From a virus: a stretch of DNA of 31,857 bases. Under the pieces are notes generated by a model. That model saw nothing but the letters and a program-made list of their open reading frames with translations. It was not told the origin of the DNA and ran no database searches. Shown one piece after another: positions 10,274 to 29,640 of this stretch (within the stretch, counting starts at the first letter, position 1; every line of letters starts with the position of its first letter). The stretch lies in the IMG/VR virus record IMGVR_UViG_3300046532_002742, positions 1-31,857 of that record. The stretch is one strand, 5' to 3'. A program made the translations under genes and the position numbers.

Positions 10274-13102
10274 GTGGCGTCGAAGCCGGTAACTATAAAA
10301 ATTTTAGGTGATGCTAGTTCGCTCCAAAAAGCTTTGGGAAAAGCCGAGTCGGGGCTAGGGGCGTTTGCCGGCAAGGCCGGGGCTTCGCTTAAAGTTATGA
10401 CGGCGGCGGCCGGGGCGTTTGCCGCTGTTGCCGGAAAAGCTGCTGTAGACTTTCAAGACGATATGGCGCAGGTGTTTACGCTTTTGCCCGGCGTTTCTGG
10501 TACGGCTATGTCGGAAATGTCCGACCAGGTTCTAGAGTTCAGCAAAAAAATCGGTATTCTTCCCGACGAAATAATTCCGGGAATTTACGATGCTCTTTCG
10601 GCCGGCGTTCCGCAAAAAAATCTTTTCGAGTTTATGGAGGTTGCCGGGCGGGCCGCCATCGGCGGAAACCTAGAGGTCGCCGACGCTGTAGACTTGCTTT
10701 CGACTGCTGTAAACGCTTACGCAGAAACGGGGCTTTCGGCTGCTGAAGCGTCCGACATATTTTTTACGACGGTTCGGTTGGGTAAAACTACTGTCCCGGA
10801 ATTGCAGTCGGCGTTTTCTAAGGTCGGTCCTGTAGCCGCCGCACTAGGTATTGGTCTAGAAGAGGTCGGGGCCGGAATGGCGGTCTTGACGGCCGCCGGC
10901 GAGCCGACTTCTTCGTCTGCGACGAAGATGGCGGCGGCTTTGGCGGAGCTTGGGAAAGACGGTACTAAAGCGTCGAAATCGTTCGAGGAGCTTAGCGGCG
11001 TCGTGTTCTCCGATTTTGTGGCGCAGGGCGGAACGTTCACCGAAGCAGTCGGCATTATGTCCGACTCCGGGTTGAGTTTCCTAAACATGTTTTCCAGTAA
11101 AGAGGCCGCTTTCGGCGCTATGGGTTTAGCTGTCAATGACGCAGAATCTTTGCAGGCTGCTCTAGCGGAAATGAACGGCGCAGCGGGCGCCACCGACTCG
11201 GCTTACGAAATGATGTCGGGCACCGTCCAGTTTTCGATAGAAAAAATTAAAGCCAGCGTGTCCGCTATAACCATCCAGCTAGGATCAAAATTTTTACCCG
11301 TGCTGGCTGTTGTGGCCGGCTACATAGCCGCCAATCTCCCCAAATGGGAAACAATGTTTGGGAACTTTGTCGGTAATGTCGTAGACCTTTTCGACAAAAT
11401 GAAGGGTCCAGTAGTCGAGGCGTTCGACTTTGTTGTTTCTTCTTTCCGGGATAATTGGAAGACAATCCAAAAAGTTGTAGATTCTGTAGTCGGGGTTTTG
11501 ACGAAGAAAGTTTTTCCTAAACTGTTGAAGGCTTTCGACAAAATTAAATCCACGGTTTCGGATACTGTTCTTCCTGCTTTGTCTACTGCGTTCGATGCGG
11601 TTAAGGGCGCTGCTGTTGTTGCGTTTGATTACATTAAGGATACTGTTCTTCCTGCTTTGTCTACTGCGTTCGAGACTGTCAAGGGCGCACTTGTTAACTA
11701 TGTTTTTCCTGCTCTAGTTGCGGCGTTCGATTCGGTTCTAGCTGCTGCTGTAGCGGTTTACGATTGGGTCGTTGCGAATTGGGATACGATAAAAGAAACA
11801 ATCGTTTCTGCGTTTGATCTTATTGTGGAGTCGGGCAAAAAAGTTGTGGATTCTTTAGTGACTTTTGTAGAGAAGCTTGTAGCGGTCGGTAAATGGGTTA
11901 AAGATAACGACCCCGCAATTGCTGCTATTGCTACTGTTATAGGTGTTGTGTTGGTAAAGTCTTTAGTACAGGCCACGGTCGCTGTTTGGGCTAAGGTTGC
12001 TGCTTTATATGCTCAGGCTGCGGCGTTTGTTGCCGCTAATGCAACGCTGATTATTGTAGTTGCTGCGTTGGCGGCGTTTGCGGCTGCTGTTGTTTGGGCT
12101 TATCAAAATGTCGGGTGGTTTCGTGAAACCGTTCTAGCGTTAAAGGACGCCGCCGTAGTCGTCTTTGAATGGTTACAGGTTAGAGTGCCGCAAGTAATCG
12201 GGGTTATAGTTTCGGCGCTCTCTTGGGTTGTGGAAAAGCTTGTAGCGTTTGTCGGCTTGTTCCAAACGGCTTGGGCTAATTGGGGCGACTACATTATGGA
12301 AAAAGTTAATACCGTTTGGGGTAGTATAAAAGAATACGTGTCGGCTGCGTTCAACGTTTTAGTCGAAACTTTTAACACGTTTAAAGCGTTGTTTACTGGA
12401 GATTGGGACGCATTGTGGGACGGAATCGTTGCTACGGTGCGGGCGGTAGGCGTGTTAATAAAGGCTGCTTTTAAACTGGCTTGGAGTGTAGCGAAGGTAG
12501 GTTTCGTTTTTGTTTGGGACGCTATGAAGCTTCTAGCTTCTGAGGCGTTCGATAAGATCGTAGAGTTTGCTAAGGCTTCGCCCGGGCTGCTGAAGGATGC
12601 GATTTGGTTAGGTGCCGGGTTATTGTACGACGCCGGAAAGCATATAATCGACCAGATGAAGGCGGGCGTACAAGCGGCGTTCGAGGCCATCGTTTCTTAT
12701 GTATCGGGAAAAGTAGCTTGGATAAGTGCTCAAATCGCCACGGCGCAGAATCTTGCCAGCACGCTTTCGTTTGGGCTTATACCTAGGGCGGATGATGGGG
12801 AAGATGGGCCTAAGCTTGGGACACCCGAAAACCCGATGTCGCCCGACCAGATGAAACAGTACTTCGGAGATCCTGCTCAACCTATGCAGCACGGCGGGCC
12901 GTTGCGTAATGGTCTTTCTTTGGTCGGTGAGCGTGGCCCCGAGTTGTTAAGAATGAACCAGTTCGGCGGCGCTTCGGTTGTAGCAAATCAAGACATGAGC
13001 GGCGCAGGTGTCGGCGGCGATGTGATAGTTAACGTTTCCACTAATGCGGATCCTTGGGCTATCGGGTCCGCTGTTGCTTGGGAATTACGGAGGGCGGGAT
13101 AA
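10274..13102 (+). CDS. Tape measure protein
   Basis: 942 residues, the largest gene here. It sets tail length; at the usual 1.5 angstrom per residue this predicts a tail of about 140 nm. The N-terminal third has the TP901-type tape measure core (AVDFQDDMAQVF, ELQSAFSKVGPVAAALG, GAGMAVLTAAGEPTSSSATKM). The middle holds hydrophobic segments (AAVWAY region, near residue 600) and amphipathic repeats with period about 26 residues (DTVLPALSTAF twice). The C-terminus has GLSLVGERGPELLRM, the conserved end motif. The GTG start follows GCAGGGG. An identical 36-bp repeat lies inside the gene. Confidence 0.95.
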   Translation: MASKPVTIKILGDASSLQKALGKAESGLGAFAGKAGASLKVMTAAAGAFAAVAGKAAVDFQDDMAQVFTLLPGVSGTAMSEMSDQVLEFSKKIGILPDEIIPGIYDALSAGVPQKNLFEFMEVAGRAAIGGNLEVADAVDLLSTAVNAYAETGLSAAEASDIFFTTVRLGKTTVPELQSAFSKVGPVAAALGIGLEEVGAGMAVLTAAGEPTSSSATKMAAALAELGKDGTKASKSFEELSGVVFSDFVAQGGTFTEAVGIMSDSGLSFLNMFSSKEAAFGAMGLAVNDAESLQAALAEMNGAAGATDSAYEMMSGTVQFSIEKIKASVSAITIQLGSKFLPVLAVVAGYIAANLPKWETMFGNFVGNVVDLFDKMKGPVVEAFDFVVSSFRDNWKTIQKVVDSVVGVLTKKVFPKLLKAFDKIKSTVSDTVLPALSTAFDAVKGAAVVAFDYIKDTVLPALSTAFETVKGALVNYVFPALVAAFDSVLAAAVAVYDWVVANWDTIKETIVSAFDLIVESGKKVVDSLVTFVEKLVAVGKWVKDNDPAIAAIATVIGVVLVKSLVQATVAVWAKVAALYAQAAAFVAANATLIIVVAALAAFAAAVVWAYQNVGWFRETVLALKDAAVVVFEWLQVRVPQVIGVIVSALSWVVEKLVAFVGLFQTAWANWGDYIMEKVNTVWGSIKEYVSAAFNVLVETFNTFKALFTGDWDALWDGIVATVRAVGVLIKAAFKLAWSVAKVGFVFVWDAMKLLASEAFDKIVEFAKASPGLLKDAIWLGAGLLYDAGKHIIDQMKAGVQAAFEAIVSYVSGKVAWISAQIATAQNLASTLSFGLIPRADDGEDGPKLGTPENPMSPDQMKQYFGDPAQPMQHGGPLRNGLSLVGERGPELLRMNQFGGASVVANQDMSGAGVGGDVIVNVSTNADPWAIGSAVAWELRRAG
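11560..11673 (+). repeat. Two identical 36-bp direct repeats in tape measure gene
   Basis: Copies at 11560-11595 and 11638-11673 are identical, with 78 bp (26 codons) from start to start, encoding DTVLPALSTAF twice in the same frame. The perfect nucleotide identity points to recent duplication, or gene conversion, of one helical repeat that would change tail length. Confidence 0.85.
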
Positions 13103-18101: not shown

Positions 18102-18314
18102 TTATTTGCCTTCGGTGAATATGTCTGATTGGTAGAGGTCTTGCAATGTTGTTGCGGGTGTAATGCTAAGCGTGTCTGTTACGTAGCGGAGGGTGTGAAG
18201 GTCTTCGTAGATTCCGGCGTCGCCTGCGTCTTCGATTGAGTCGAGCCATGCGCAGGTGTCGGCGTCTGCTAGTAGTTCTTCGATTGTGGTTGCGGTTGTT
18301 GTGGTGTTGTTCAT
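18102..18314 (-). CDS. Acidic hypothetical protein with shared MNNTTTT leader
   Basis: 70 residues starting MNNTTTTATT, then an acidic helical part (IEELLADADTCAWLDSIEDAGDAG). No family is recognised. Its first seven codons and its promoter are identical with those of the three other minus-strand genes of this set. The ATG lies only 6 nt after the -10 box and has no Shine-Dalgarno, so translation is probably leaderless. A terminator directly follows, so it is a single-gene unit. The acidic character might suit a small inhibitor, but this is only a thought. Confidence 0.7.
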   Translation of the reverse strand: MNNTTTTATTIEELLADADTCAWLDSIEDAGDAGIYEDLHTLRYVTDTLSITPATTLQDLYQSDIFTEGK

Positions 18315-18349
18315 GACTAAAATATAGGGGGGTTTGTTTAGAAAACCAA
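18315..18349 (-). promoter_or_regulatory. Leaderless-type promoter, copy A
   Basis: Minus strand: -35 TTGGTT (18344-18349), 17-bp spacer containing CCCCCC, -10 TATATT (18321-18326), then 6 nt to the ATG. Transcription starting 6-7 nt after the -10 would begin at or beside the A of the start codon. The 82 bp at 18293-18374 are identical to copy B (19133-19214), including the AT-rich stretch upstream of -35 that could be an UP element. Confidence 0.8.
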
Positions 18350-18380
18350 CCTCGGCCTAAAAATAAATAAAAAAGAAGGG

Positions 18381-18626: not shown

Positions 18627-19154
18627 TCACCATTGATCGGTGACGGATCTAAACGCTATGCTTATTCTCGGCTCTGCGTGCTTAGCCGTTTTCGCTATTC
18701 GGTGTTCGTGTGTGTGTTGTGCGTCGCCTGACATTACGAACACGTCGCCGTGTTCTACGTTAAAGGTTTCGGCCTTCTCGCCGTCTCGGCGTGTCTGGAA
18801 TCGTCTTCCGCCGCCGATGCTAAGAACTGCGACGGTTGCGTTGTCCCGCTCGGCGCCTTTTAGGTCTTTGTGCCATGCTACGCTATCGGCGCCGTTTCGG
18901 TAAAGGTTGCATCCGGCTTGTTCAAATTTGCATCCTAGAAGGGTTTCGAGTTCGGCGGCCACGGCGGCCAGCGGGCCGGCCAGTTCGTCCGGCGTCGTGT
19001 TGTGCGTAAGCCGTGGAGTAGCTACAGGCCGGCCGTACATTTGCCTAACTTGCTGCTCCCAAGGGATAGAAACCATTGTTTCGCAAAAGTCGAGCGCATC
19101 GGCAAACCCTTTAATGTGTCGGATTGTTCCGCCGGTTGTTGTGGTGTTGTTCAT
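18627..19154 (-). CDS. AlkB-like 2OG-Fe(II) dioxygenase
   Basis: 175 residues after a start of MNNTTTTGGT. It has the complete AlkB active site: H95 and D97 in AWHKD, H151 in EHRIAK as third iron ligand, and R163 and R169 in EPRISIAFR as 2-oxoglutarate-binding arginines. NLYRNGADSVAWHKD and HGDVFVMSGDAQHTH match the ALKBH2/3-like core. Family members use oxygen and 2-oxoglutarate to remove alkyl groups from DNA or RNA bases. The usual N-terminal nucleotide-recognition lid is short. It has its own leaderless-type promoter. Substrate (damage repair, modified base or RNA) cannot be read from sequence. Confidence 0.9.
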   Translation of the reverse strand: MNNTTTTGGTIRHIKGFADALDFCETMVSIPWEQQVRQMYGRPVATPRLTHNTTPDELAGPLAAVAAELETLLGCKFEQAGCNLYRNGADSVAWHKDLKGAERDNATVAVLSIGGGRRFQTRRDGEKAETFNVEHGDVFVMSGDAQHTHEHRIAKTAKHAEPRISIAFRSVTDQW

Positions 19155-19189
19155 GACTAAAATATAGGGGGGTTTGTTTAGAAAACCAA
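19155..19189 (-). promoter_or_regulatory. Leaderless-type promoter, copy B
   Basis: TTGGTT (19184-19189), 17-bp spacer, TATATT (19161-19166), 6 nt to the ATG of the AlkB-like gene. It is identical to copy A throughout, exactly 840 bp away. No Shine-Dalgarno sequence lies in the 6 nt. Confidence 0.8.
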
Positions 19190-19214
19190 CCTCGGCCTAA
19201 AAATAAATAAAAAA

Positions 19215-19256: not shown

Positions 19257-19490
19257 TTAGGCTCTGATGACTGGCGCCATCGAGAAAGTGCCTAGCGGGA
19301 GAGCCCATTCACCTTGGTGGCCGTTCTTAACGCCGACTCGCTTACCGTCGGTAAAGGTGATGAACTTAGCCGAGCGCTTGGCTACTGTGAAGGTCCAAAC
19401 GGTGTTATGGTCGCAAGCGCTGCGGGCCGAGTAGGTTTCGCCAACTGTAAATGTTGCGGCGGTGGTTGCGGTTGTTGTGGTGTTGTTCAT
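19257..19490 (-). CDS. Small beta-rich hypothetical protein with MNNTTTT leader
   Basis: 77 residues starting MNNTTTTATTAA. The body, FTVGETYSARSACDHNTVWTF and KRSAKFITFTDGKRVGVK then LPLGTFSMAPVIRA, has the look of a small beta-barrel found as a hypothetical protein in actinobacteria and their phages. The function is unknown to me. ATG 19490 is used rather than the in-frame TTG at 19499, because all four sister genes start with the same ATG and the TTG would lie inside the -10 region. Confidence 0.72.
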   Translation of the reverse strand: MNNTTTTATTAATFTVGETYSARSACDHNTVWTFTVAKRSAKFITFTDGKRVGVKNGHQGEWALPLGTFSMAPVIRA

Positions 19491-19526
19491 GTAGATCAAT
19501 ATAGGGGGGTTTGTTTAGAAAACCAA
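19491..19526 (-). promoter_or_regulatory. Leaderless-type promoter, copy C
   Basis: TTGGTT (19521-19526), 17-bp spacer, TATATT (19498-19503), 7 nt to the ATG. The bases between -10 and ATG differ from the other copies (GATCTAC), while the hexamers, the spacer and the first seven codons are kept, which suggests selection on those parts. Confidence 0.78.
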
Positions 19527-19550
19527 CCTCGACGCAAAAATAAATAAAAA

Positions 19551-19592: not shown

Positions 19593-20387
19593 TTAGGCTA
19601 GAAAGTTTTTTCCTGGGAGATCTTCGACCTGCTCAGAAACCCAAGCTTTTACGTCGGCAAGCTTGCCTACCTGCGCCTGTGCTCCACCTTCTGGAAACTT
19701 CAGCATCCGACCGGCTCCCTTGAACTTGCCGTCTGGTGTTTGCGACACGTTGGCGACTCGGTGGCCGTTGAACAGGAGGTCGTAGCAGATCTGGGCTGAC
19801 TGGCTGCTGTAGATGCTGTGGCGTGCTTCGCTGACTGTTACGGCGTCGTTTGCTGCAACAAGCTTGGCGACTGTCGGGTTCAGCTTGTAGGTGTTGTTTT
19901 CGAGTGCGGCTTCTGCGTCGGCGATTGCTGAGAGTATGTCTGCGTCTCGGTCTGCGATGCGTGCGGCTTTGGCTGCTGCTGCTTCTTCCCGTCCTGCTGC
20001 GGCTTGGGCTGCTGCTGCTCGGTTGGCTTTGGTGGCGTGGCTAATTCCGTCTGTCCATTCTACGGGTGCGGTGGGGAAGCAGTGAGAGCATAGGATCTCG
20101 CCGAGCAGGTCTACGGCTTCGGATTCGGTCTTGCCGGATAGCTCGGTAATCCATACAAAGTTTGTGGTGTCGAAGCATGTAGGGCAGTTTGTGCTTTTAT
20201 GGATGTGTCCGTTTGTGTTTGTGACTAGGAAGAAGCGGCTCCATCCGGCGAAGCGTGCGTGTTGGCGTGCTTGCTCGGTGCGGGCGAATGCTAGGTGCCG
20301 TTCCGCTGCGGCTGCTGCGTCGTTGGCTTCTGCAATTGCTGAGTCTATGCGGGCTTCGGTGGTTGCGGTTGTTGTGGTGTTGTTCAT
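19593..20387 (-). CDS. Hypothetical protein with CxxC zinc motifs and MNNTTTT leader
   Basis: 264 residues. After MNNTTTTATT comes an Ala/Glu-rich helix, then a likely zinc module with NGHIHKSTNCPTCFDTT and EILCSHCFPTAPVEW (about residues 59-110), an Ala-rich coiled coil (about 118-168) and a C-terminal alpha/beta part (LFNGHRVANVSQTPDGKFKG). Proteins with this HIH...CPTC...CFPTAP order occur as hypotheticals in actinobacteria and their phages; no function is known to me. Zinc binding is inferred from the cysteine pairs. It has a leaderless-type promoter and its own terminator. Confidence 0.78.
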   Translation of the reverse strand: MNNTTTTATTEARIDSAIAEANDAAAAAERHLAFARTEQARQHARFAGWSRFFLVTNTNGHIHKSTNCPTCFDTTNFVWITELSGKTESEAVDLLGEILCSHCFPTAPVEWTDGISHATKANRAAAAQAAAGREEAAAAKAARIADRDADILSAIADAEAALENNTYKLNPTVAKLVAANDAVTVSEARHSIYSSQSAQICYDLLFNGHRVANVSQTPDGKFKGAGRMLKFPEGGAQAQVGKLADVKAWVSEQVEDLPGKNFLA

Positions 20388-20422
20388 GACTAAAATATAG
20401 GGGGGTTTGTTTAGAAAACCAA
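20388..20422 (-). promoter_or_regulatory. Leaderless-type promoter, copy D
   Basis: TTGGTT (20417-20422), 17-bp spacer with the C-run, TATATT (20394-20399), 6 nt to the ATG. Same as copies A and B up to CCAACCTCG on the plus strand, then diverging in the AT-rich upstream part. Confidence 0.8.
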
Positions 20423-20445
20423 CCTCGACCTAAAAAGAATTATTT

Positions 20446-20643
20446 TTAGAAGAGTTTTCCGGGTTTCGGTGCGGCGGGTTGCGTCTTTTTGTTGAGGCGT
20501 TCGGCTAGTGCTGCGGCGGCTTTGTAGGTTTTGCGTTCGCTGTCCGCTACGGGTTCGGGGTGCGGGTTGCCGGCTAAATATTTTCGGACGCACCAAACCA
20601 TTTGCGGCGCCGAGTAGTTGGCGCAAGGCGAGGCTACGAACAC
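20446..20643 (-). CDS. Small hypothetical protein, second gene of a minus-strand pair
   Basis: 65 residues: MFVASPCANYSAPQMVWCVRK followed by a helix (DSERKTYKAAAALAERLNKK) and a Pro/Lys tail. No family is recognised. GTG 20643 overlaps the stop of the upstream gene (TAGTG), so the two are coupled. It lacks the MNNTTTT leader, and no hairpin follows its stop, so its transcript could run into promoter copy D. Confidence 0.62.
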   Translation of the reverse strand: MFVASPCANYSAPQMVWCVRKYLAGNPHPEPVADSERKTYKAAAALAERLNKKTQPAAPKPGKLF

Positions 20644-20813
20644 TATTCGGCGGCGGTCGTCCGGAAAGTGTGCACGGTCTGAATTTGGGAGCCGGGTAGT
20701 AGTCGGTGGGTTAGCGTTAGCGTTGTCTTTTGAAAAGGTTTGTCGGCGAGCCCGTTAACTAGGGCGTCGACTAGCGACCTTTTTTCGGGCGATAATTCTA
20801 GGTATCTATCCAT
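20643..20813 (-). CDS. Small hypothetical protein, first gene of the minus-strand pair
   Basis: 56 residues starting MDRYLELSPEKRSLVDALVNGLADK, a helical start, then a Thr/Leu-rich part (TTLTLTHRLLPGSQ). No family is recognised. AAGG directly abuts the ATG, too close for a normal ribosome site. It is the first gene leftwards from the divergent region, so an early regulatory role is conceivable but not shown. Confidence 0.5.
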   Translation of the reverse strand: MDRYLELSPEKRSLVDALVNGLADKPFQKTTLTLTHRLLPGSQIQTVHTFRTTAAE

Positions 20814-20891
20814 CCTTGCAGTGTAGCCCGGCGTGACCGTTTCGGGTCGAAATTCTGAGGTTTATTTACGGTTCATTTACACAAAACTTTT

Positions 20892-20909
20892 CAGCCTACC
20901 AATTTTTTT
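20892..20909 (-). repeat. Right arm of 18-bp inverted repeat
   Basis: Exact reverse complement of 17995-18012. On the minus strand the arm also carries TTGGTA and a TAGGCT hexamer, in a sequence reminiscent of the four promoter repeats. Confidence 0.8.
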
Positions 20910-20921
20910 GTCTTTAAACAA
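20893..20921 (-). promoter_or_regulatory. Possible leftward promoter for the 56/65-residue gene pair
   Basis: TTGTTT (20916-20921), 17-bp spacer, TAGGCT (20893-20898), preceded by CCGAGG just as in copies A and B. It looks like a diverged fifth member of that promoter family. An overlapping alternative is TTGGTA-17-TAAATG. Either leaves a 5' leader of about 50-75 nt before the ATG at 20813. Confidence 0.35.
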
Positions 20922-20968
20922 CCTCGGAAAAAACTTTCTCGGATTTCTTTTTGCCGGTCTGATTCTCC

Positions 20969-21208
20969 GGTGTAGTAAAAGGTGTAGTAACTACGTCACT
21001 TTGTGCGACATTTTGGCCGCTCTGCGTGGTGGTGTAGTAAAAGGTGTAGTAAAAGGTGTAGTAAAAGGTGTAGTAAAAATTGCTCGGGTTGGCGCCGTTG
21101 CAACGATCGGGGCCGGCGGTGTAGTAGGTGTAGTGTTTTTCGGAGGCTATTACCTATTTAACAGAATCAAACCTAACAACAATGGTAAAACGCTTCACTT
21201 ACTACACC
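20969..21208 (+). repeat. Iteron-like array of GGTGTAGTAA motifs
   Basis: Direct copies start at 20969, 20981, 21031, 21043, 21055 and 21067; four of them form a perfect 12-bp tandem (GGTGTAGTAAAA, 21031-21078). Shorter GGTGTAGT copies lie at 21118 and 21127, and TTACTACACC at 21199-21208 is an inverted copy. The motif appears in two reading frames and both orientations, so it is conserved as DNA rather than as protein. Protein binding for replication, partition or repression is the likely use. Confidence 0.8.
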
Positions 21209-21252
21209 CGACAAAATCGGCCGTTAGAAACTATTTGCAACCCGACGGGTAG
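21001..21252 (+). CDS. Doubtful small ORF over the iterons (GVVK repeats, one TM segment)
   Basis: If translated from TTG 21001 it gives 83 residues: a short helix, four GVVK repeats, a glycine-rich hydrophobic segment (VGAVATIGAGGVVGVVFFGG) and a basic tail. The frame is open from 20833. The hydrophobic segment followed by positive charges looks like a membrane protein, but no ribosome site is seen and the repeats are explained as DNA sites. It may be coincidental. Confidence 0.25.
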   Translation: MCDILAALRGGVVKGVVKGVVKGVVKIARVGAVATIGAGGVVGVVFFGGYYLFNRIKPNNNGKTLHLLHPTKSAVRNYLQPDG

Positions 21253-21271
21253 TTTTTGGGGTTGCCGGCGG

Positions 21272-21277
21272 TATAGT
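21272..21277 (+). promoter_or_regulatory. Possible -10 box for the replication operon
   Basis: TATAGT, 34 bp before the first rightward gene, the same hexamer as at 30814 and 1777. No good -35 is present 16-18 bp upstream, so an activator binding to the neighbouring repeats could be needed. Confidence 0.4.
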
Positions 21278-21305
21278 GGGGGCAACTACAAGAGGAGATC
21301 CAGAA

Positions 21306-22208
21306 ATGACTACCCCAAAAATTGCTACGATTAGAAGAGGCGGGGCCCGCCATTACGTGCACCCGGTAGACGGTTCGACAGCCGTAGGGGTGACTTCGGT
21401 AGTCGGGATGTTGCCGAAAGATTTTTTGCGGTATTGGGCCGCAAAGTTGGTCGCCGAGTCGGCTTACGACGAATTTTCGACGTTGGCGGGGTTTGTGGTG
21501 AGCGAAGACCCGGAGTCGAGGGCGGCCGCTGTCGCTTGGTTAAAGAACGCCCCGACCCGGTTAACTTCGGGCGCAGCGCAAAACGGAAACGATGTCCATT
21601 CTTTAACGGAAGACATAGACCGTTTAGGGGGTATTCCTCCGAGGTTGCCGGCGGATAAAATGCCTTACGCTTTGGGGTGGCTAAATTTTCGGGAGCAAAC
21701 GCAGTGCGAAGTGTTGGCGGCAGAGCGGACTATATGGAATTCGGAAGTCGGCTATAGCGGGACGTTAGACCGTTCGGTTTTGATTCCTGCTAGCGCTTGG
21801 GAAAGGTTCGACGCTCCGCCGGCTTGGTGGGAAGGGCCGGACGTTCCTATAATTTGCGACTGTAAAACTACAAGGTCGGGCGTTTTTCCGGAAGTCGGTT
21901 TGCAAATGGCGGCGTATTCTTATGCGACGGAATCGTTGGAGTTCGACGAACACGGGGTAGCGGAGGCTAAGCCGTGGCCTAAGCATAGCGAGACTAGTTT
22001 AGTGGTTTGGTTGCGGCCGGAGGCGTGGAGGTTGACGCCGGTAGATTCTTCGGCCGAGGTTTTCGAGGCGTTTAAACATTTGGCGGAAATTTTTAAGTTT
22101 GATCGGGGTTTAAAGAAGGATCTAATTTTGCCTGATGTTGCGGGGGAGACGTGGGAGCCGGAGCAGGTGGCTTTGTTTGCTGACGTTTTGCGGGGGCTTC
22201 GGAAATGA
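21306..22208 (+). CDS. RecB/Cas4-like PD-(D/E)XK exonuclease
   Basis: 300 residues. Nuclease motifs in order: E140 in AERTIWN, D155 in YSGTLD, D185-x-K187 in ICDCKTTR, and Q200 with Y204 in LQMAAYSYA, the RecB-type motif. Enzymes of this class resect DNA ends for recombination or replication. The start ATG 21306 has AGAGGAG 8 nt upstream, better than upstream in-frame codons. It leads the rightward replication block and overlaps the next gene (ATGA). Confidence 0.85.
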   Translation: MTTPKIATIRRGGARHYVHPVDGSTAVGVTSVVGMLPKDFLRYWAAKLVAESAYDEFSTLAGFVVSEDPESRAAAVAWLKNAPTRLTSGAAQNGNDVHSLTEDIDRLGGIPPRLPADKMPYALGWLNFREQTQCEVLAAERTIWNSEVGYSGTLDRSVLIPASAWERFDAPPAWWEGPDVPIICDCKTTRSGVFPEVGLQMAAYSYATESLEFDEHGVAEAKPWPKHSETSLVVWLRPEAWRLTPVDSSAEVFEAFKHLAEIFKFDRGLKKDLILPDVAGETWEPEQVALFADVLRGLRK

Positions 22209-22898: not shown

Positions 22899-23570
22899 AT
22901 GGCTATAAAAATTTTGGATGTTAAAGCGGCGCCGATGCAGGACGGCATGGAGGGCGGCGACATTGTGGGGCAAATCGTTAATGGTGTCGGGCAGGTTCCC
23001 GACTATAGAGATTTGGGGGGGTGGGCTATCCGTTTCGACGATTTAGACGTAGCGGAGGCTTTTGCAAAGGTGTTGCCGGCGTCCCGTTTGGAGGATCACG
23101 GGACCGAGGGCCGGGTTCACCATGTAGTTTTGGGTGATGGCGTTCCTTTGGATATTCGGGTAGAGCATGTTTCTACGAAGATGCTTCTTCGGTCGCAATC
23201 GGATTGGTCTATTGTTCGGGATTGCGACGGTATGGTTATGGCGGACGGGGACGATTGCGTTTGTTCCCGTTTGGCGCCGCACGGCACGCCGGAAATGCGG
23301 AAGTATCAAAAAGACGGGCAGGCTTGTAAGCCGTCCGGTTTTATTGTTGCGACTTTGGAGGGTTTCCCGGAGCTTGGAAAGTTGAGTTTCTCGAAAAATT
23401 CGGAGTCTACAGTTCGGCCGTTTGTGGCTCTGGAAGCGAGTTTGCAGAAACCGCCGTTTATTGTGTTTCTGTCGTTGAAAACTGTAGAGTCTAAGAAGAA
23501 CGGGTTTTCGTGGTCGGTCCCCGAGTTCGGGGATTTGCGGCCGGCTTCGGTGGACGACGGGCCGTTTTAG
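22899..23570 (+). CDS. Gp3-like protein (phiC31 recombination directionality factor family)
   Basis: 223 residues. The middle RDCDGMVMADGDDCVCSRLAPHG with CKPSGFIVATLEGFPELGKLSFS and a late strand FIVFLSLKTVESKKNGFSWSVP follow the layout of Gp3-like phage proteins: a VPLDI strand region, a Cys-containing centre, LGxxxF, then strands. In phiC31, gp3 switches the serine integrase to excision; many homologues sit among recombination genes and may bind single-stranded DNA. No integrase is present here, so a DNA-binding recombination role is more likely. ATG 22899 follows TTAGGAG. Confidence 0.65.
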   Translation: MAIKILDVKAAPMQDGMEGGDIVGQIVNGVGQVPDYRDLGGWAIRFDDLDVAEAFAKVLPASRLEDHGTEGRVHHVVLGDGVPLDIRVEHVSTKMLLRSQSDWSIVRDCDGMVMADGDDCVCSRLAPHGTPEMRKYQKDGQACKPSGFIVATLEGFPELGKLSFSKNSESTVRPFVALEASLQKPPFIVFLSLKTVESKKNGFSWSVPEFGDLRPASVDDGPF

Positions 23571-23974: not shown

Positions 23975-24706
23975 GTGGTAGTGAGAAAGTTTGACCAGGT
24001 TAGAGCGGCGGCTTTTGGGCCGGCGGTGTCGGAGTGCGTTCCGTTTGTGGGGGCTATTAGCGCTCACGGTTATGGTGCGGTCCGTTTCGGTGGGGATTGG
24101 TTGCTAGCGCATCGGGCTTGTTTGTCTTTGTTTGCGGGGGAAGCCCCGGAGGGTAAGCCGTTTGCTTTGCATTCTTGCAGGTTGCGGGCTTGTATAAATC
24201 CGGCGCATTTACGTTGGGGGGATGCTGCGGAAAACTCGGCCGACCAGAGGGCGGACGGGGTAGGTAACGGGGGGGTCGGGTTTGCTGTCGGGTTGAGCGA
24301 TGAAGAGAGCCGGGCGGTGCTTCTCGATTTGTGGTCTACGGTGGACCCTATGGCTGTCGTTGCTGGCCGGCATGGTTTGTCGAAAATTACCGTTTCGAAT
24401 TTGCACACGGGCCGTTCTAGGCCGCGGGTTCGGGCGGCTTTGGTCGAGCACCCGGCGATTTTTTGGTTAGAGCGGGATTATTTGGTGCGTCGGCGTGACC
24501 GGTTTATAAGTGCGGGCGTTTGGCGGGCGGCCGTTTTGGACGTTTGGGCTAGTGGGGATTCGTTAGAGTCGGTTTCTGTCCGTCATGGTGTTAGCTCTTC
24601 GATGCTTAGCAAGGTTGTTAAAGGGGGGCGCCGGCCGGAGGTTCGGGCGTCTCTTTTGGAACAAGCGGCGTTTCTTAAGTTAGAATCGGCCTATGTTGGG
24701 GGTTAA
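23975..24706 (+). CDS. HNH endonuclease with two duplicated HTH domains
   Basis: 243 residues. Residues 30-95 form an HNH_3-type nuclease: GYGAVRFGGDWLLAHRACL, then HSCRLRACINPAHLRWGDAAEN with H66, N75 and H78. Residues 114-170 and 185-241 are two similar helix-turn-helix units (LLDLWSTVDPMAVVAGRHGL and VLDVWASGDSLESVSVRHGV, then RSRPRVRAALVEH and RRPEVRASLLEQ), clearly an internal duplication. A site-specific homing-type nuclease is likely. Start GTG 23975 or 23981 after GGGGG. It lies between resolvase and primase genes. Confidence 0.82.
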   Translation: MVVRKFDQVRAAAFGPAVSECVPFVGAISAHGYGAVRFGGDWLLAHRACLSLFAGEAPEGKPFALHSCRLRACINPAHLRWGDAAENSADQRADGVGNGGVGFAVGLSDEESRAVLLDLWSTVDPMAVVAGRHGLSKITVSNLHTGRSRPRVRAALVEHPAIFWLERDYLVRRRDRFISAGVWRAAVLDVWASGDSLESVSVRHGVSSSMLSKVVKGGRRPEVRASLLEQAAFLKLESAYVGG

Positions 24707-24710
24707 CCGT

Positions 24711-27083
24711 ATGGCCGGCCTTTTGTCGGGGCTTTCGGGGGTGCAACGGTTAGGCGACCAGGTGGTTGCTAATTGTCCGGGGCACGACGACGGGGTAGCG
24801 TCTTTGGCGGTGGGTATCGGCGAGTCTGGAAAGGTGCTTCTTAAATGTTTCGCCGGTTGTTCGTTTGCTAAGGTCGGCGGGGCTTTGGTGGGGGTCGATT
24901 TGTCGGGGTCTGATTGGGTTTGGCCGGCGGATTTGCCGCTAGGGGTTGCTAGCGCCGATCCGGTACAACCTGAGGGGGAGCTTTTGGAGTTGCGGGCGTT
25001 TGTGTCCGATTGTGAGTCTGCGCTATGGGAGTCGCCGGAAGCGCTGGCCGAGGTCCGGTCTAGGTTCGGTTTAAGCGACGAACTTATTAGGGGTTTTCGT
25101 TTGGGGTTGTCTGCGGCTCGGCCGTATGCTTGGCGGGGTGTCGGTTCGTCTTGGTCTGCGGTGCAACGTTTAACGGTCCCGTTTTTTGGTTTCGATGGGA
25201 GCGTTAAAGGTTGCCAAGGTCGGGCGTTGACTCCGCATCGTGTGCGGTGGGCGGGTCTTACGGGTTCGGGTTGGGCTCGGTCTTCTATGTTTCGGCCGGG
25301 TTTGTTTGATGCGGTCGAGGACGGGCCGGTTGTTATTTGCGAAGGGCCTTCGGATGCTTTGACGGTTGCGGGGCGTCTCGGGTTTGATGCGGTGGCGATT
25401 CGAGGCGCTGCGCTTCGGTCTGATTCTGTCCTGGCCGAGTTTTTGGTTAGTGTCGGAGACCGCACGGTTATTGTTTGCGGAGATAATGACACGGCCGGCG
25501 AAAAGTTTTCGCAGAGCATAGCGCAATCTTTGATGGGTGCAGGGGTAGACGCACGCGTTTTGCATATCCCTATGGGTTCGGACGTTAACGATTGGGCGAT
25601 GCTTGCGGAAACGCATTTTGCGCACGATTTCAGGGATCAAGCGGCAGCGGCGCCGGCAACGATTTTGGGGTTGGAGAGGGTGGCGGCTGTTAGGGCTTCG
25701 GCACCTAATTTGTTTGATTCTTGGCCGCATGTTTCGCCGCCGGGTTTGCAGCATGTGACAGCCGGCGAGGTGTTTTTATGGTTCTTAGATAAGACGGGTA
25801 GAGACATGGCCTACGTTGTCGGATATAAGGGCCCGACTTTGTGGTCTGATGGTCTTTGGCAGTTGGGGCAACCGCACGCCGTGCGGTCCGCTTTGCAGGA
25901 ATGCGGGTCGATAGCCCGGGCGCATTCAGACCCCGACCACCCTTGGCACTTCGAGATTTTGCAGTTGGGAAACAAGCTTGCTTCCACAAATTTTTTAAAC
26001 AGCGTTATAAAAGAATTAGAGGCGTTGTGCAAAGTCTTTTTTGCTGATTCTTTTGATAGCGTCGAGCATTATTTGGCTGTAAAAAATGGGGTTATAGATC
26101 TTAGAGACGGGTCTTTGATTGATCCGACGCCGGCACAGATGATTTCTACACGTTTAGACGTTAAGTTTAACCCCGAGGCGGATTGCGATTTGTGGCGTTC
26201 TTTCTTGGCGCAGTGTATGGGAGAGGAATCGGACCCCGCCCGGCCGATGTCGAGCTATTTGCAGAGGGTTTTAGGGTATGGGCTAACGGGTAGCGTTTCG
26301 GAGCAGTCGTTTTTCGTTCATTATGGGACAGGCGCAAACGGTAAAAGCACGTTTACGGATACTTTACAGAGCGTTTTTCGGAGCGTGTCGAAAAATGTTC
26401 AGTTCTCCGTTTTCGAGGATTCGGCTTCGTCTAGTGGAGGGCCGAGTAGCGAGATAGCTAGGCTTCGGGGATCTCGGCTAGTTTTTACGGCGGAAGGTTC
26501 GGGGCGGCCTATGAAGGAAGCATTGCTTAAAGTGCTTTCGGGTGGCGATTTGATAACGGCGAGGCATTTGTTCGCTGAGGAAATAGAGTTTCATCCGCGG
26601 TTCCTTCTTCAAATGTCGACGAATAATAAGCCAGATTTTCGGGGTGTAGATGAGGGGCTTTGGCGCCGTGTGAAACTTATAAGGTGGGGCCGCTATTTCG
26701 GGGAGTCGGAAAGAGATTTGCGGTTACCGCAAAAGCTTTTAGCGGAGAGCGAAGGCATTTTAGCTTGGGCTGTCCGGGGTGCACAAATTTGGTATCGGGG
26801 CGGGGGGCTTGGGGAGCCGGCGGCCGTTTCGGAGGCGACGGAAGAATATCGGGATTCGGCGGATATTCTCGCCGGGTTTTATCCGGGCGTCTTGAATAGC
26901 GAACGGGGCGAAAATGTTTCTCTTGCCGATATATATTTTGCCTTCTGCGGTTGGGCAGATTCTGAGGGGATAGAAGAGTACTCTAGGCGGTGGTTACGTG
27001 CTAACCTAGAAACTAGGGGCGTAGCGTTTCGGCGCTTAAAAACCGGTTTCCATTCTGTAGACCATAAACTAGTTTTAGGTTAG
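24711..27083 (+). CDS. TOPRIM primase / SF3 (D5-like) helicase
   Basis: 790 residues, a replicative primase-helicase. N-terminal zinc-ribbon-like CPGHDD and CFAGCSF, TOPRIM with E211 in ICEGPSDAL and D258/D260 in CGDNDTAGEKF. After about residue 345 a D5_N region (KNGVIDLRDGSL) and SF3 AAA+ core: Walker A YGTGANGKST with K545, Walker B-like LVFTAE, sensor LQMSTNN, then LWRRVKLIRW. A winged-helix C-terminus follows. ATG 24711 has GGGGG 8 nt upstream; ATG 24693 is in frame but has no such site. Confidence 0.92.
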   Translation: MAGLLSGLSGVQRLGDQVVANCPGHDDGVASLAVGIGESGKVLLKCFAGCSFAKVGGALVGVDLSGSDWVWPADLPLGVASADPVQPEGELLELRAFVSDCESALWESPEALAEVRSRFGLSDELIRGFRLGLSAARPYAWRGVGSSWSAVQRLTVPFFGFDGSVKGCQGRALTPHRVRWAGLTGSGWARSSMFRPGLFDAVEDGPVVICEGPSDALTVAGRLGFDAVAIRGAALRSDSVLAEFLVSVGDRTVIVCGDNDTAGEKFSQSIAQSLMGAGVDARVLHIPMGSDVNDWAMLAETHFAHDFRDQAAAAPATILGLERVAAVRASAPNLFDSWPHVSPPGLQHVTAGEVFLWFLDKTGRDMAYVVGYKGPTLWSDGLWQLGQPHAVRSALQECGSIARAHSDPDHPWHFEILQLGNKLASTNFLNSVIKELEALCKVFFADSFDSVEHYLAVKNGVIDLRDGSLIDPTPAQMISTRLDVKFNPEADCDLWRSFLAQCMGEESDPARPMSSYLQRVLGYGLTGSVSEQSFFVHYGTGANGKSTFTDTLQSVFRSVSKNVQFSVFEDSASSSGGPSSEIARLRGSRLVFTAEGSGRPMKEALLKVLSGGDLITARHLFAEEIEFHPRFLLQMSTNNKPDFRGVDEGLWRRVKLIRWGRYFGESERDLRLPQKLLAESEGILAWAVRGAQIWYRGGGLGEPAAVSEATEEYRDSADILAGFYPGVLNSERGENVSLADIYFAFCGWADSEGIEEYSRRWLRANLETRGVAFRRLKTGFHSVDHKLVLG

Positions 27084-27091
27084 GTTATATT

Positions 27092-27859
27092 ATGAAGCTT
27101 TTATATTTGGACATTGAGACGGCGCCGAACGTTAGTTACACTTGGGGCGGCAAGTACGACCAAAACGTTATAGCGTTCCAGCGCGAAAAGTACATTTTAT
27201 GTTTTTCTTATCAATGGGAGGGGGAAGGCGAAACGCACGTAGTCGCTCAACCCGATTTTAAGAAAGCTTTTAAGGCCGATAGACACGACGATAAAATGGT
27301 ACTTAGGGCGCTATGGGATCTTTTGGATACCGCCGACGTGGTTTGCGGGCACAATATTAGGGGCTTCGACCTAAAAAATATTAACTCGGGGTTTGTTACT
27401 CAGGACATGCCGCCGCCGTCGCCGTATTTGACTGTCGACACTCTAAAAATTGCTAGGGCGAATTTCAAATTTAACAGCAATAGCCTTAAAGACCTTTGCA
27501 TAACTTTGGGCTTGCCGCATAAGGAAGACGCCGGCGGTTTCTCTACTTGGTTAGGTGCTATGGAAGGCGACGCGGATAGTTGGGAAAAAATGGTTTCTTA
27601 TGCCCGGCAAGATACGGCTTTACTTCCTTTGCTTTTGAAGCGGCTCCGCCCGTTCGCTAAGGGTTTGCCTTCGATGAATTTTGGCGACGTTCACGCTTGC
27701 CCGGTTTGTTGTGCTGAAGAAAAAAACTTAACCCGTCGAGGTTTTCGTTACACGAAAACAGGAAAATTTCAAACGTGGCATTGTGGGCAGTGTTTGGGGT
27801 GGTCTTCTAGCCGGATTTCTTCGGTGAATTCTGACGATAGGCCCCGGCGGGTTTCGTGA
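27092..27859 (+). CDS. DnaQ-like 3'-5' exonuclease with C-terminal zinc finger
   Basis: 255 residues. DEDD-type motifs: YLDIETAPN (D8, E10 approx.), GHNIRGFDLKN, and YARQDTALL, with the tyrosine typical of DEDDy proofreading enzymes. Residues 205-235 have CPVCC and CGQCLGW, likely zinc-binding. The gene is immediately upstream of the polymerase and overlaps it by 4 bp. It may proofread, or serve in nucleotide clearance or recombination, since the polymerase has its own exonuclease domain. Confidence 0.85.
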   Translation: MKLLYLDIETAPNVSYTWGGKYDQNVIAFQREKYILCFSYQWEGEGETHVVAQPDFKKAFKADRHDDKMVLRALWDLLDTADVVCGHNIRGFDLKNINSGFVTQDMPPPSPYLTVDTLKIARANFKFNSNSLKDLCITLGLPHKEDAGGFSTWLGAMEGDADSWEKMVSYARQDTALLPLLLKRLRPFAKGLPSMNFGDVHACPVCCAEEKNLTRRGFRYTKTGKFQTWHCGQCLGWSSSRISSVNSDDRPRRVS

Positions 27860-29640
27860 TACGTCACGGCCGGATGGTCGCCGGCGAAGATGTCGTTATT
27901 AACGTCGTCGAGGGCCCGGCAGATTTGCCGGCTTTCGAGGCGTTCGTTTCGGCTAACGCCGGCCGCCCGGTCGGTTGCGACACGGAAACTACCGGACTCG
28001 ATCCTTGGGCGCCGGGGTGGCGTTTGCGGTGTGTGCAGTGGGCGACGCCGTGCGAAGCTTGGGTTTTGCCGTCGGAGTTCTTCGGGGCTATACAGGCGGC
28101 TTTGTTAGAGTTCCGTTTTCCGGTTTTCCATAACCGGGTTTTCGATTGTTTCGCTCTTACCCGTGCCGGCTTCGATCATTTAGGGTGGGGCGACGAAGCG
28201 GCGGACACGCAAATTTTGGCGCACCTTGCGGATTCGCGTTCGTCTAGGGACGGCGGGGTAGGTCACGGTCTAAAAAATCTGTCCGATAGTCTTATAGAGC
28301 CGGGCCTTTCCGGGGACCAGGCAGAAATTAAAGCTTGGGCTAAATCGGAAGGGGTTTCGAGTAGTGACCTTTTCCGGGTTGTCCCGTTTCCGTTGTTGTC
28401 GGCATATGCGGGAATGGACGCAGTTTTAACCGTCCGTCTTTGGTCGCTTCTTAGCGCTAAGGTTGCCGGTATGGGTTGCGGCCATTTGGTGCCGTTTGAA
28501 TTGGCTTTACAAAGGTGTTGCGCCGAAATGGCCGAGACGGGGTTTCGGGTAGACTTGGATTATGCGGAGTGGCTCGGCGGCCATTTGGAAAGCGTGTCCG
28601 AAGCGGCGGCGTTTAAATTGCGGGCTTTGGGGGTAGATAACCCTGCTAGTCCCGCTCAAGTTGCGGAACGGCTTATAGCCGACGGCGTAGATTTGAAGGT
28701 TAAGACCGACGGCGGTAAGCCTAGCGTTAGCTCTGACGCTTTGGTTGGGGTCCGTCACCCTATAGCCGAGCTTATAGGAGAATACAGGGGGGCGGCCAAG
28801 CTAAAGGCTAGCTATGTAGATAGGGTTATTTCTTCGGCTTCGGATTCTCGGGTACATGCTAATATTAGGACGCTCGGAGCCAGGACGGGACGTTTTGCAG
28901 TCAGTTCTCCGGCGTTGCAGCAATTGCCGGCGGGCGACGCTTTGGTTAGGAGAATGTTTATCGCCGACGAAGGCTATTCGTTGTGCAGCGTGGACTATAG
29001 CGCTATCGAGCTTAGAATTTTGGCGGCGCTATCCGGAGAAAAAAGTATGTTAAAAGCTATTTCGGCGGGCGAAGATTTGCACCAAAACGCTGCGTCGTTG
29101 ATGGGAGTAACACGAAAAACGGCTAAAATGGCTAACTTCTTGACGGTTTACGGGGGCGGGAGTTCTCAGTTAGCTGTGCAGGCGGAAATCTCGCCGGCGG
29201 ATGCCCGGGCGGCCTTGGCGGCGTTCCGGCGTTCGTTCCCGGCGATTGGCCGTTATAGTAAGAGGTTGCAGCGGGCGGCGTGTTCGGGTGCGGTGCCGGT
29301 AAAAACGCCGTCGAAAAGGCTTCTACACTTGGACAGAGACCGGCTCTACGCTGCTACTAATTATGTCGTCCAGAGCGCCGCCCGTGACGTTTTAGGAGAA
29401 GCAATTTTAAGGGTTGACGATTCGCCGCTTGGCGGTTCTATGTTGTTACCGGTGCACGACGAGATCATTTTTCAAGTGCCGACCGGCGAGGCTAATAGGT
29501 CGGTCGCTGCTATGGTGGAATTAATGTCTACAGATTTTGGGCCTTCGGTACACCTAGCGGCAACGGGCGAGGTTATGGGCCGTTCTTGGGGTCACGGATA
29601 CAACTTCGCAGCGACGCCGGCGGAACGGTGGTTTAAGTGA
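27856..29640 (+). CDS. DNA polymerase, family A, with 3'-5' exonuclease domain
   Basis: 594 residues. Exonuclease motifs: D42 and E44 in GCDTETTGLD, FHNRVFDCFAL and YAGMDAVL. Polymerase motif A SVDYSAIELRILAALSGE (D380), motif B RKTAKMANFLTVYGGG (R420, K424, F428, Y432), motif C LLPVHDEIIF (H534, D535). No 5'-nuclease domain, as in most phage enzymes. F428, the position equivalent to E. coli F762, is phenylalanine; the next residue is leucine in place of glycine. GTG start overlaps the DnaQ-like stop. It is the replicative polymerase of this phage. Confidence 0.95.
   Translation: MIRHGRMVAGEDVVINVVEGPADLPAFEAFVSANAGRPVGCDTETTGLDPWAPGWRLRCVQWATPCEAWVLPSEFFGAIQAALLEFRFPVFHNRVFDCFALTRAGFDHLGWGDEAADTQILAHLADSRSSRDGGVGHGLKNLSDSLIEPGLSGDQAEIKAWAKSEGVSSSDLFRVVPFPLLSAYAGMDAVLTVRLWSLLSAKVAGMGCGHLVPFELALQRCCAEMAETGFRVDLDYAEWLGGHLESVSEAAAFKLRALGVDNPASPAQVAERLIADGVDLKVKTDGGKPSVSSDALVGVRHPIAELIGEYRGAAKLKASYVDRVISSASDSRVHANIRTLGARTGRFAVSSPALQQLPAGDALVRRMFIADEGYSLCSVDYSAIELRILAALSGEKSMLKAISAGEDLHQNAASLMGVTRKTAKMANFLTVYGGGSSQLAVQAEISPADARAALAAFRRSFPAIGRYSKRLQRAACSGAVPVKTPSKRLLHLDRDRLYAATNYVVQSAARDVLGEAILRVDDSPLGGSMLLPVHDEIIFQVPTGEANRSVAAMVELMSTDFGPSVHLAATGEVMGRSWGHGYNFAATPAERWFK

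Follow-up and report, generated by a model that had tools for sequence, protein, structure and literature searches.

An iteron array and dyad upstream of the exonuclease gene in a phiC31-like phage, probably one of a pair of replication origins

The window, i.e. the whole analysed stretch of 31,857 nucleotides, belongs to a virus whose left part encodes a capsid and tail module, with small minus-strand genes at 18.1-20.8 kb, and whose rightward replication module runs from an exonuclease to a family A DNA polymerase. A minus-strand reading frame starts at about 20812 and the ATG of the exonuclease is located at 21306. The region between them shows the non-coding average in all six frames when taken over its full length and contains an array of short repeats (iterons). 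The following features are relevant for this locus:

20813..21305, no strand: divergent, mostly non-coding region with the whole array (flanking frames and coding averages)
20969..20990, plus strand: iteron cluster A, two GGTGTAGTAA decamers 12 bp apart (motif positions)
21031..21078, plus strand: iteron cluster B, four perfect 12-bp units GGTGTAGTAAAA (repeat search)
21118..21137, plus strand: left arm of the dyad, two iterons 9 bp apart (GGTGTAGTAGGTGTAGTG), 17 of 20 positions complementary to 21189-21208
21138..21188, no strand: candidate unwinding element, a 51-nt AT-rich core with 67% AT (composition)
21189..21208, minus strand: right arm of the dyad, a perfect inverted iteron and a degenerate one (GGTGTAGTA-AGTGAAGCG on the minus strand; arm matching)
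21306..22208, plus strand: exonuclease (phrog_298), the syntenic anchor in relatives (PHROG match)
22899..23570, plus strand: phrog_9220 protein, similar to gp3 of phiC31 and assigned to the PHROG of gp3 (PHROG match)
24693..27083, plus strand: primase-helicase of the P4 family with Toprim, D5_N and SF3 parts, 796 aa, proposed initiator (Pfam D5_N and Toprim; TIGR01613)
26874..27080, plus strand: C-terminal domain of the primase-helicase, candidate winged-helix iteron-binding domain (conserved in relatives; low-confidence model)
27856..29640, plus strand: family A DNA polymerase of the same replication module (domain match)

The primase-helicase reaches 221.7 bits with TIGR01613 ('phage/plasmid primase, P4 family'; cut-off 108.7) and 59.5 bits with D5_N (cut-off 22.4). 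A protein with a dATP/dGTP diphosphohydrolase domain, a RusA-like resolvase and an HNH protein are also encoded in the replication module. Relatives of the phrog_9220 protein are annotated as recombination directionality factors, and the presence of this phiC31 gp3-like gene hints at an integrase located off the contig. The nearest named relatives of the exonuclease and the primase, with less than 60% identity, are found in phages of Arthrobacter, Microbacterium, Curtobacterium, and Streptomyces, including phiC31, whose primase is encoded by gene 9a. Searches returned no close relative of the primase and only remote ones of PolA. Two short contigs from other samples (L066 and L069) are 100% identical to parts of the portal protein of the window and, judged by this identity, are the same virus population. 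The gene order exonuclease, gp3-like gene, primase, and PolA corresponds to that of the phiC31-type early region in Lomovskayavirus and Azeevirinae relatives, and in both cases a dyad is located upstream of the exonuclease. The window differs from the phiC31 type in its lower GC content, its divergent left genes, an extra six-copy array, and the position of the integrase end, which is off the contig.

An earlier, sequence-only reading had described eight direct copies (six full, two shorter) and one inverted copy of an iteron within 240 bp, four of them in perfect 12-bp tandem, and these repeats could be confirmed. The six direct GGTGTAGTAA decamers start at 20969, 20981, 21031, 21043, 21055, and 21067, with the tandem at 21031-21078. 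The shorter direct copies are GGTGTAGTA at 21118 and GGTGTAGT at 21127, and the inverted copy TTACTACACC corresponds to 21199-21208. When the whole window was searched, exact copies of GGTGTAGTA were confined to the 240 bp of the array; with at most one mismatch, 12 matches were found in the window versus 3.9 expected, a number reached in none of 100 shuffles. The copies at 20969 and 20981 lie in one reading frame and the remainder in another, in agreement with the claim that two frames and both orientations are used. The AT-rich flank was found at 20860-20939 (68-72% AT). The description as a divergent junction next to replication genes also holds, with minus-strand coding to the left and the exonuclease, the primase-helicase, and the family A polymerase to the right.

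According to one alternative explanation, the tandem is coding sequence, namely a Gly-Val-Val-Lys repeat within a small membrane protein encoded at 21001-21252. This frame is open, its translation has one membrane-like segment, and its codon usage is gene-like with 0.21 bits per codon, a value reached by 5% of open wrong-frame stretches; moreover, Gly-Val-Val repeats with this DNA occur in many viral proteins. However, two copies lie in another frame, one is inverted, and an apparent ribosome-binding site is missing for 21001-21252. The sequence-only reading had regarded it as decisive against a DNA-level function if relatives kept the GVVK peptide and lost the DNA repeat. The reverse was observed, as no relative of the peptide was found in phages, while relatives retain the architecture of the DNA dyad without such an annotated gene. 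A coding repeat as the explanation of the tandem is thus very unlikely, and coding and iteron function are compatible in any case, as in phage lambda, where ori is located inside gene O.

An exact tandem search in viral contigs showed that nearly all matches are coding Gly-Val-Val repeats or integrase-linked arrays, so that the tandem word alone is no guide to function. The integrase-linked arrays are found in low-GC, Firmicutes-type contigs (L002, L014, L020, L032, and L040), in which direct AATGGTGTAGTAA arrays adjoin integrase-like genes, mostly just 3' of Tn916-like integrase genes; these arrays are probably integrase arm sites. It is scarcely credible that the array of the window also consists of arm-type sites for a tyrosine integrase of the kind found in Tn916-like elements, although the adjoining integrase-like genes in these contigs would suit such a function. 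The Firmicutes-type arrays are direct only and their contigs are without D5_N. In addition, no integrase was seen in the window, so that none adjoins the array, and the relatives of the window use serine integrases, for which arm sites are not required.

The shorter direct copies at 21118 and 21127 pair with the inverted copy in a 22-bp inverted repeat (86%) flanking the AT-rich core, so that iterons and an AT-rich core are present within one short region. Pairing of the arms 21118-21137 and 21189-21208 as good as the one observed was found in none of 40 shuffles. In the 31.9 kb scanned, the dyad is the sole 20-bp inverted repeat with at least 16 matches at a distance of 40-75 nt. It ends 97 bp before the ATG of the phrog_298 exonuclease. 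This dyad had been missed in the sequence-only reading; judged by the sequences compared, the conserved element is the dyad 21118-21208 and not the 12-bp tandem. The six extra copies at 20969-21078 are restricted to the window among the genomes read.

The comparison with relatives that had been suggested as a check was carried out by reading the stretch before the exonuclease in 13 phages with a gap at this position and in nine viral contigs. It revealed that position and architecture of the dyad are kept, while the iteron word is genome-specific. In the common anatomy, direct iterons with a step of about 9 bp are followed by about 45-70 nt of DNA richer in AT and then by the same iterons in inverted orientation. 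Within the phiC31-like phages the word differs and the position upstream of the same exonuclease gene is constant. The word is GTGACG in phiC31, TG1, Adolin, Nitro, and Mysterium, ATGACG in Pumpkins and Gretchen, GGGACG in Cen1621, GTGCCC in Attoomi, and GTGTAG, as in the window, in Rowa and the contig L044; GTGTCG and others are further words among relatives. In 21 of 23 exonuclease-upstream regions including the window, some of which come from near-duplicate contigs, the best inverted repeat by an ungapped measure beats all shuffles or all but one. Nitro and AbbeyMikolon fail this test, and their GTGACG copies are visible by eye. The region before the exonuclease is without a dyad in Eden, CliffHanger, Stoor, and Sleepyhead. 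Stoor (L174) has a 19/20 inverted repeat with a 61-nt gap at 36190, which is a candidate origin.

As the site is located just upstream of the first early gene, the iterons could alternatively serve as an operator for a transcription regulator of the early operon that starts with the exonuclease, and a second site would then control another promoter after the integrase. This is further supported by an annotated repressor gene near the site in phiC31, TG1, Rowa, and AbbeyMikolon. However, the dyad is kept without an adjacent annotated repressor in Arthrobacter, Microbacterium, and Curtobacterium phages. It is also kept in relatives with co-directional as well as with divergent upstream genes, and the AT-rich core of about 50 nt between the arms is unusual for an operator.

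A genome-wide search of each complete relative with its own dyad element revealed exactly two copies in all ten relatives (phiC31, Rowa, Adolin, Cen1621, Pumpkins, TG1, Mysterium, Liebe, and the contigs L044 and L048). The first copy precedes the exonuclease and the second is located 13-20 kb downstream, with the smallest spacing of 12.9 kb in Mysterium. In phiC31, the two copies correspond to 21660-21765 and 40428-40547. In seven annotated genomes, the second copy directly follows the serine integrase gene, with a small HNH gene in between in Rowa. Within a genome, the two copies share 76-96% identity in blastn. In a comparison of five genomes, end-to-end identities were 65-85% within and 42-60% between genomes. 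As the two copies are closer to each other than to those of other genomes, the pair evolves together, with a word private to each phage. In the window only one dyad is found; its contig ends 10.6 kb downstream and thus short of the minimum spacing of 12.9 kb. The proposed explanation is that the contig stops before the expected second place, and the second copy of this phage is probably located beyond the contig end. A paired arrangement is again seen in a viral contig (G025), in which two GGTGTAG dyads at 35248-35378 (L119) and 11152-11260 (L155) are 24 kb apart and 94% identical; the L155 dyad lies about 30 bp after a D5_N gene.

In the operator reading, the two sites of a genome could correspond to two regulated promoters. 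Likewise, two copies could bridge DNA if they served as a partition, incompatibility, or other DNA-bridging site for another phage or host protein, and plasmid iteron arrays are known to serve partition. A ParA/ParB-like pair was not recognised among the window genes examined.

For similar dyads elsewhere, viral contigs were searched for GGTGTAG/AGTGTAG dyads. The GTGTAG word was fixed in advance, so that this search shows linkage and not the frequency of the word among all such phages. Among the matches were intergenic dyads from unrelated phages, whereas matches to the same letters within coding Gly-Val repeats served as a built-in control; the two groups were sorted by eye before D5_N was searched. 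D5_N occurred in 8 of the 30 contigs whose dyads are mostly intergenic, in none of the 18 with the letters mostly in coding repeats, and in none of the 19 with tandem matches. An inspection of the neighbouring genes raised this number: in about ten unrelated families, a D5_N, VapE, DUF5906, DUF3987, or Cch-type gene has its 3' end 3-240 bp away from the dyad, at the following distances:

3 bp: L129
9 bp: L159, L161
23 bp: L152
about 30 bp: L148, L155
87 bp: L126
89 bp: L156
99 bp: L173
119 bp: L149
157 bp: L158
240 bp: L160, L162

In L173, which comes from a Kuenenia genome, the dyad contains GGTGTAGTAGGTGTAGTA and has the word and the 9-bp step of the window. Other intergenic dyads, e.g. those of the L116 family adjoining a resolvase gene, have no such primase-helicase-type gene in view. 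The dyad of the window is not adjacent to the primase gene but lies 3.5 kb upstream of it. The L126 contig (G029) has thirteen GGTGTAG sites in both orientations in less than 300 bp (48115-48386), adjoining a D5_N primase-helicase gene.

An operator, which is regarded as rather unlikely on balance, does not predict that similar dyads are linked to primase-helicase genes in unrelated phages. This linkage also favours replication over partition, and a partition or bridging site is considered highly improbable. The sequence-only reading had left the choice between origin, partition site, and repressor target. The origin is favoured by the kept position and dyad, the two copies, and the genome-specific word, and is further backed by the close linkage of similar dyads to P4/D5-type primase-helicases. 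The array can thus be regarded with good confidence as the putative initiator-binding part of a phage replication origin, and the site would probably be one of a pair of origins in a phiC31-like phage, as far as can be judged from sequences.

Iterons for a P4/D5-type initiator are of a known kind. The P4 origin consists of ori1 and crr, with decamer-sized iterons beginning with GGTG and two separate iteron sites per genome. P4 and the window share a Toprim primase with an SF3 helicase of the P4 family (TIGR01613) and decamer-sized iterons starting with GGTG, whereas the full iteron word differs. The two sites of P4 (ori/crr) have their counterpart in the ten relatives, the window contig itself having one dyad. 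In contrast to P4, the window and its relatives have dyads whose arms enclose an AT-rich core; these sites are found next to the exonuclease and integrase genes and, in the relatives, are 13-20 kb apart. The P4 alpha protein binds origin repeats with a winged helix and then unwinds and primes (PMC4234260). SaPI Rep and SCCmec Cch2 use their C-terminal domains to bind iterons that are located immediately 3' of the respective genes (PMC7581432). Short iterons are a likeness to these systems, and recognition by a C-terminal domain is proposed for the window by analogy. In L173 and L122, GGTGTAG dyads are found on the same contig as a Cch-type gene. The SaPI and SCCmec origins directly follow the helicase gene, in contrast to the upstream dyad of the window.

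By analogy with these systems, we infer that the primase-helicase (24693-27083) is the iteron binder and that replication would start at the dyad. The protein would bind iterons on both sides of the core 21138-21188, probably via its C-terminal domain, assemble as hexamers at the dyad, and then melt the AT-rich core. It would unwind and prime, and the family A polymerase of the phage would extend the primers. The six extra upstream copies may, as a guess, add initiator loading or copy-number control. The C-terminal 69 residues of the primase-helicase (about 728-796) are conserved in relatives. A model of this domain, of low confidence (pLDDT 66), has strands and two helices. In structural comparison it gave only weak matches, namely to African swine fever virus PrimPol (C-terminus, Z 3.6), AhrC (2.6), and ORC2 (2.2); no significant match was found for it with Foldseek, and the model of the whole primase is poor (pLDDT 44). 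A link between the iteron word and single residues of the C-terminal domain looked possible and broke down across all relatives. GC skew, which had been suggested for locating an origin, showed no switch at the dyad in five relatives, and its increase within the window falls where the gene direction changes. Counting exact 7-mers across whole genomes gave too much noise.

In a more specific model, which is about as likely as not, paired dyad origins would bracket the early region from the exonuclease to the integrase, with a private word co-evolving with the P4-family initiator and a tandem expansion at the site of the window. For the paired sites, three roles are conceivable: alternative origins, an ori/crr pair whose members must meet, or a looped copy-number switch. 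In a limited literature search, no earlier description of paired, genome-private dyads across phiC31-like phages was found, and the open literature searched contained no description of the phiC31 replication origin. PhiC31 serves as a standard phage in the laboratory, and its integrase is widely used. The conserved paired dyad provides exact coordinates for tests in phiC31, TG1, and many Arthrobacter and Microbacterium phages. The matched initiators and iteron words represent a natural set for DNA recognition by P4/D5-type helicases, and the dyads are candidate origins for small actinobacterial vectors.

To the left of the array, a leader of about 93 nt occurs four times (18282-18374, 19122-19214, 19458-19550, and 20355-20447; 66-95% identical). 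It spans the starts of four minus-strand genes, which therefore all begin with MNNTTTT, and GC-rich hairpin-like repeats are located between some of them. These genes resemble cassettes that share a leader for their expression, similar to the start-associated sequences of mycobacteriophages. At 20446-20812 on the minus strand, two overlapping frames (MDRYLELSPEKRSLVDAL... and ...IVFVASPCANYSAPQMVW...) seem to represent a single gene that is interrupted by a frameshift or an assembly error.
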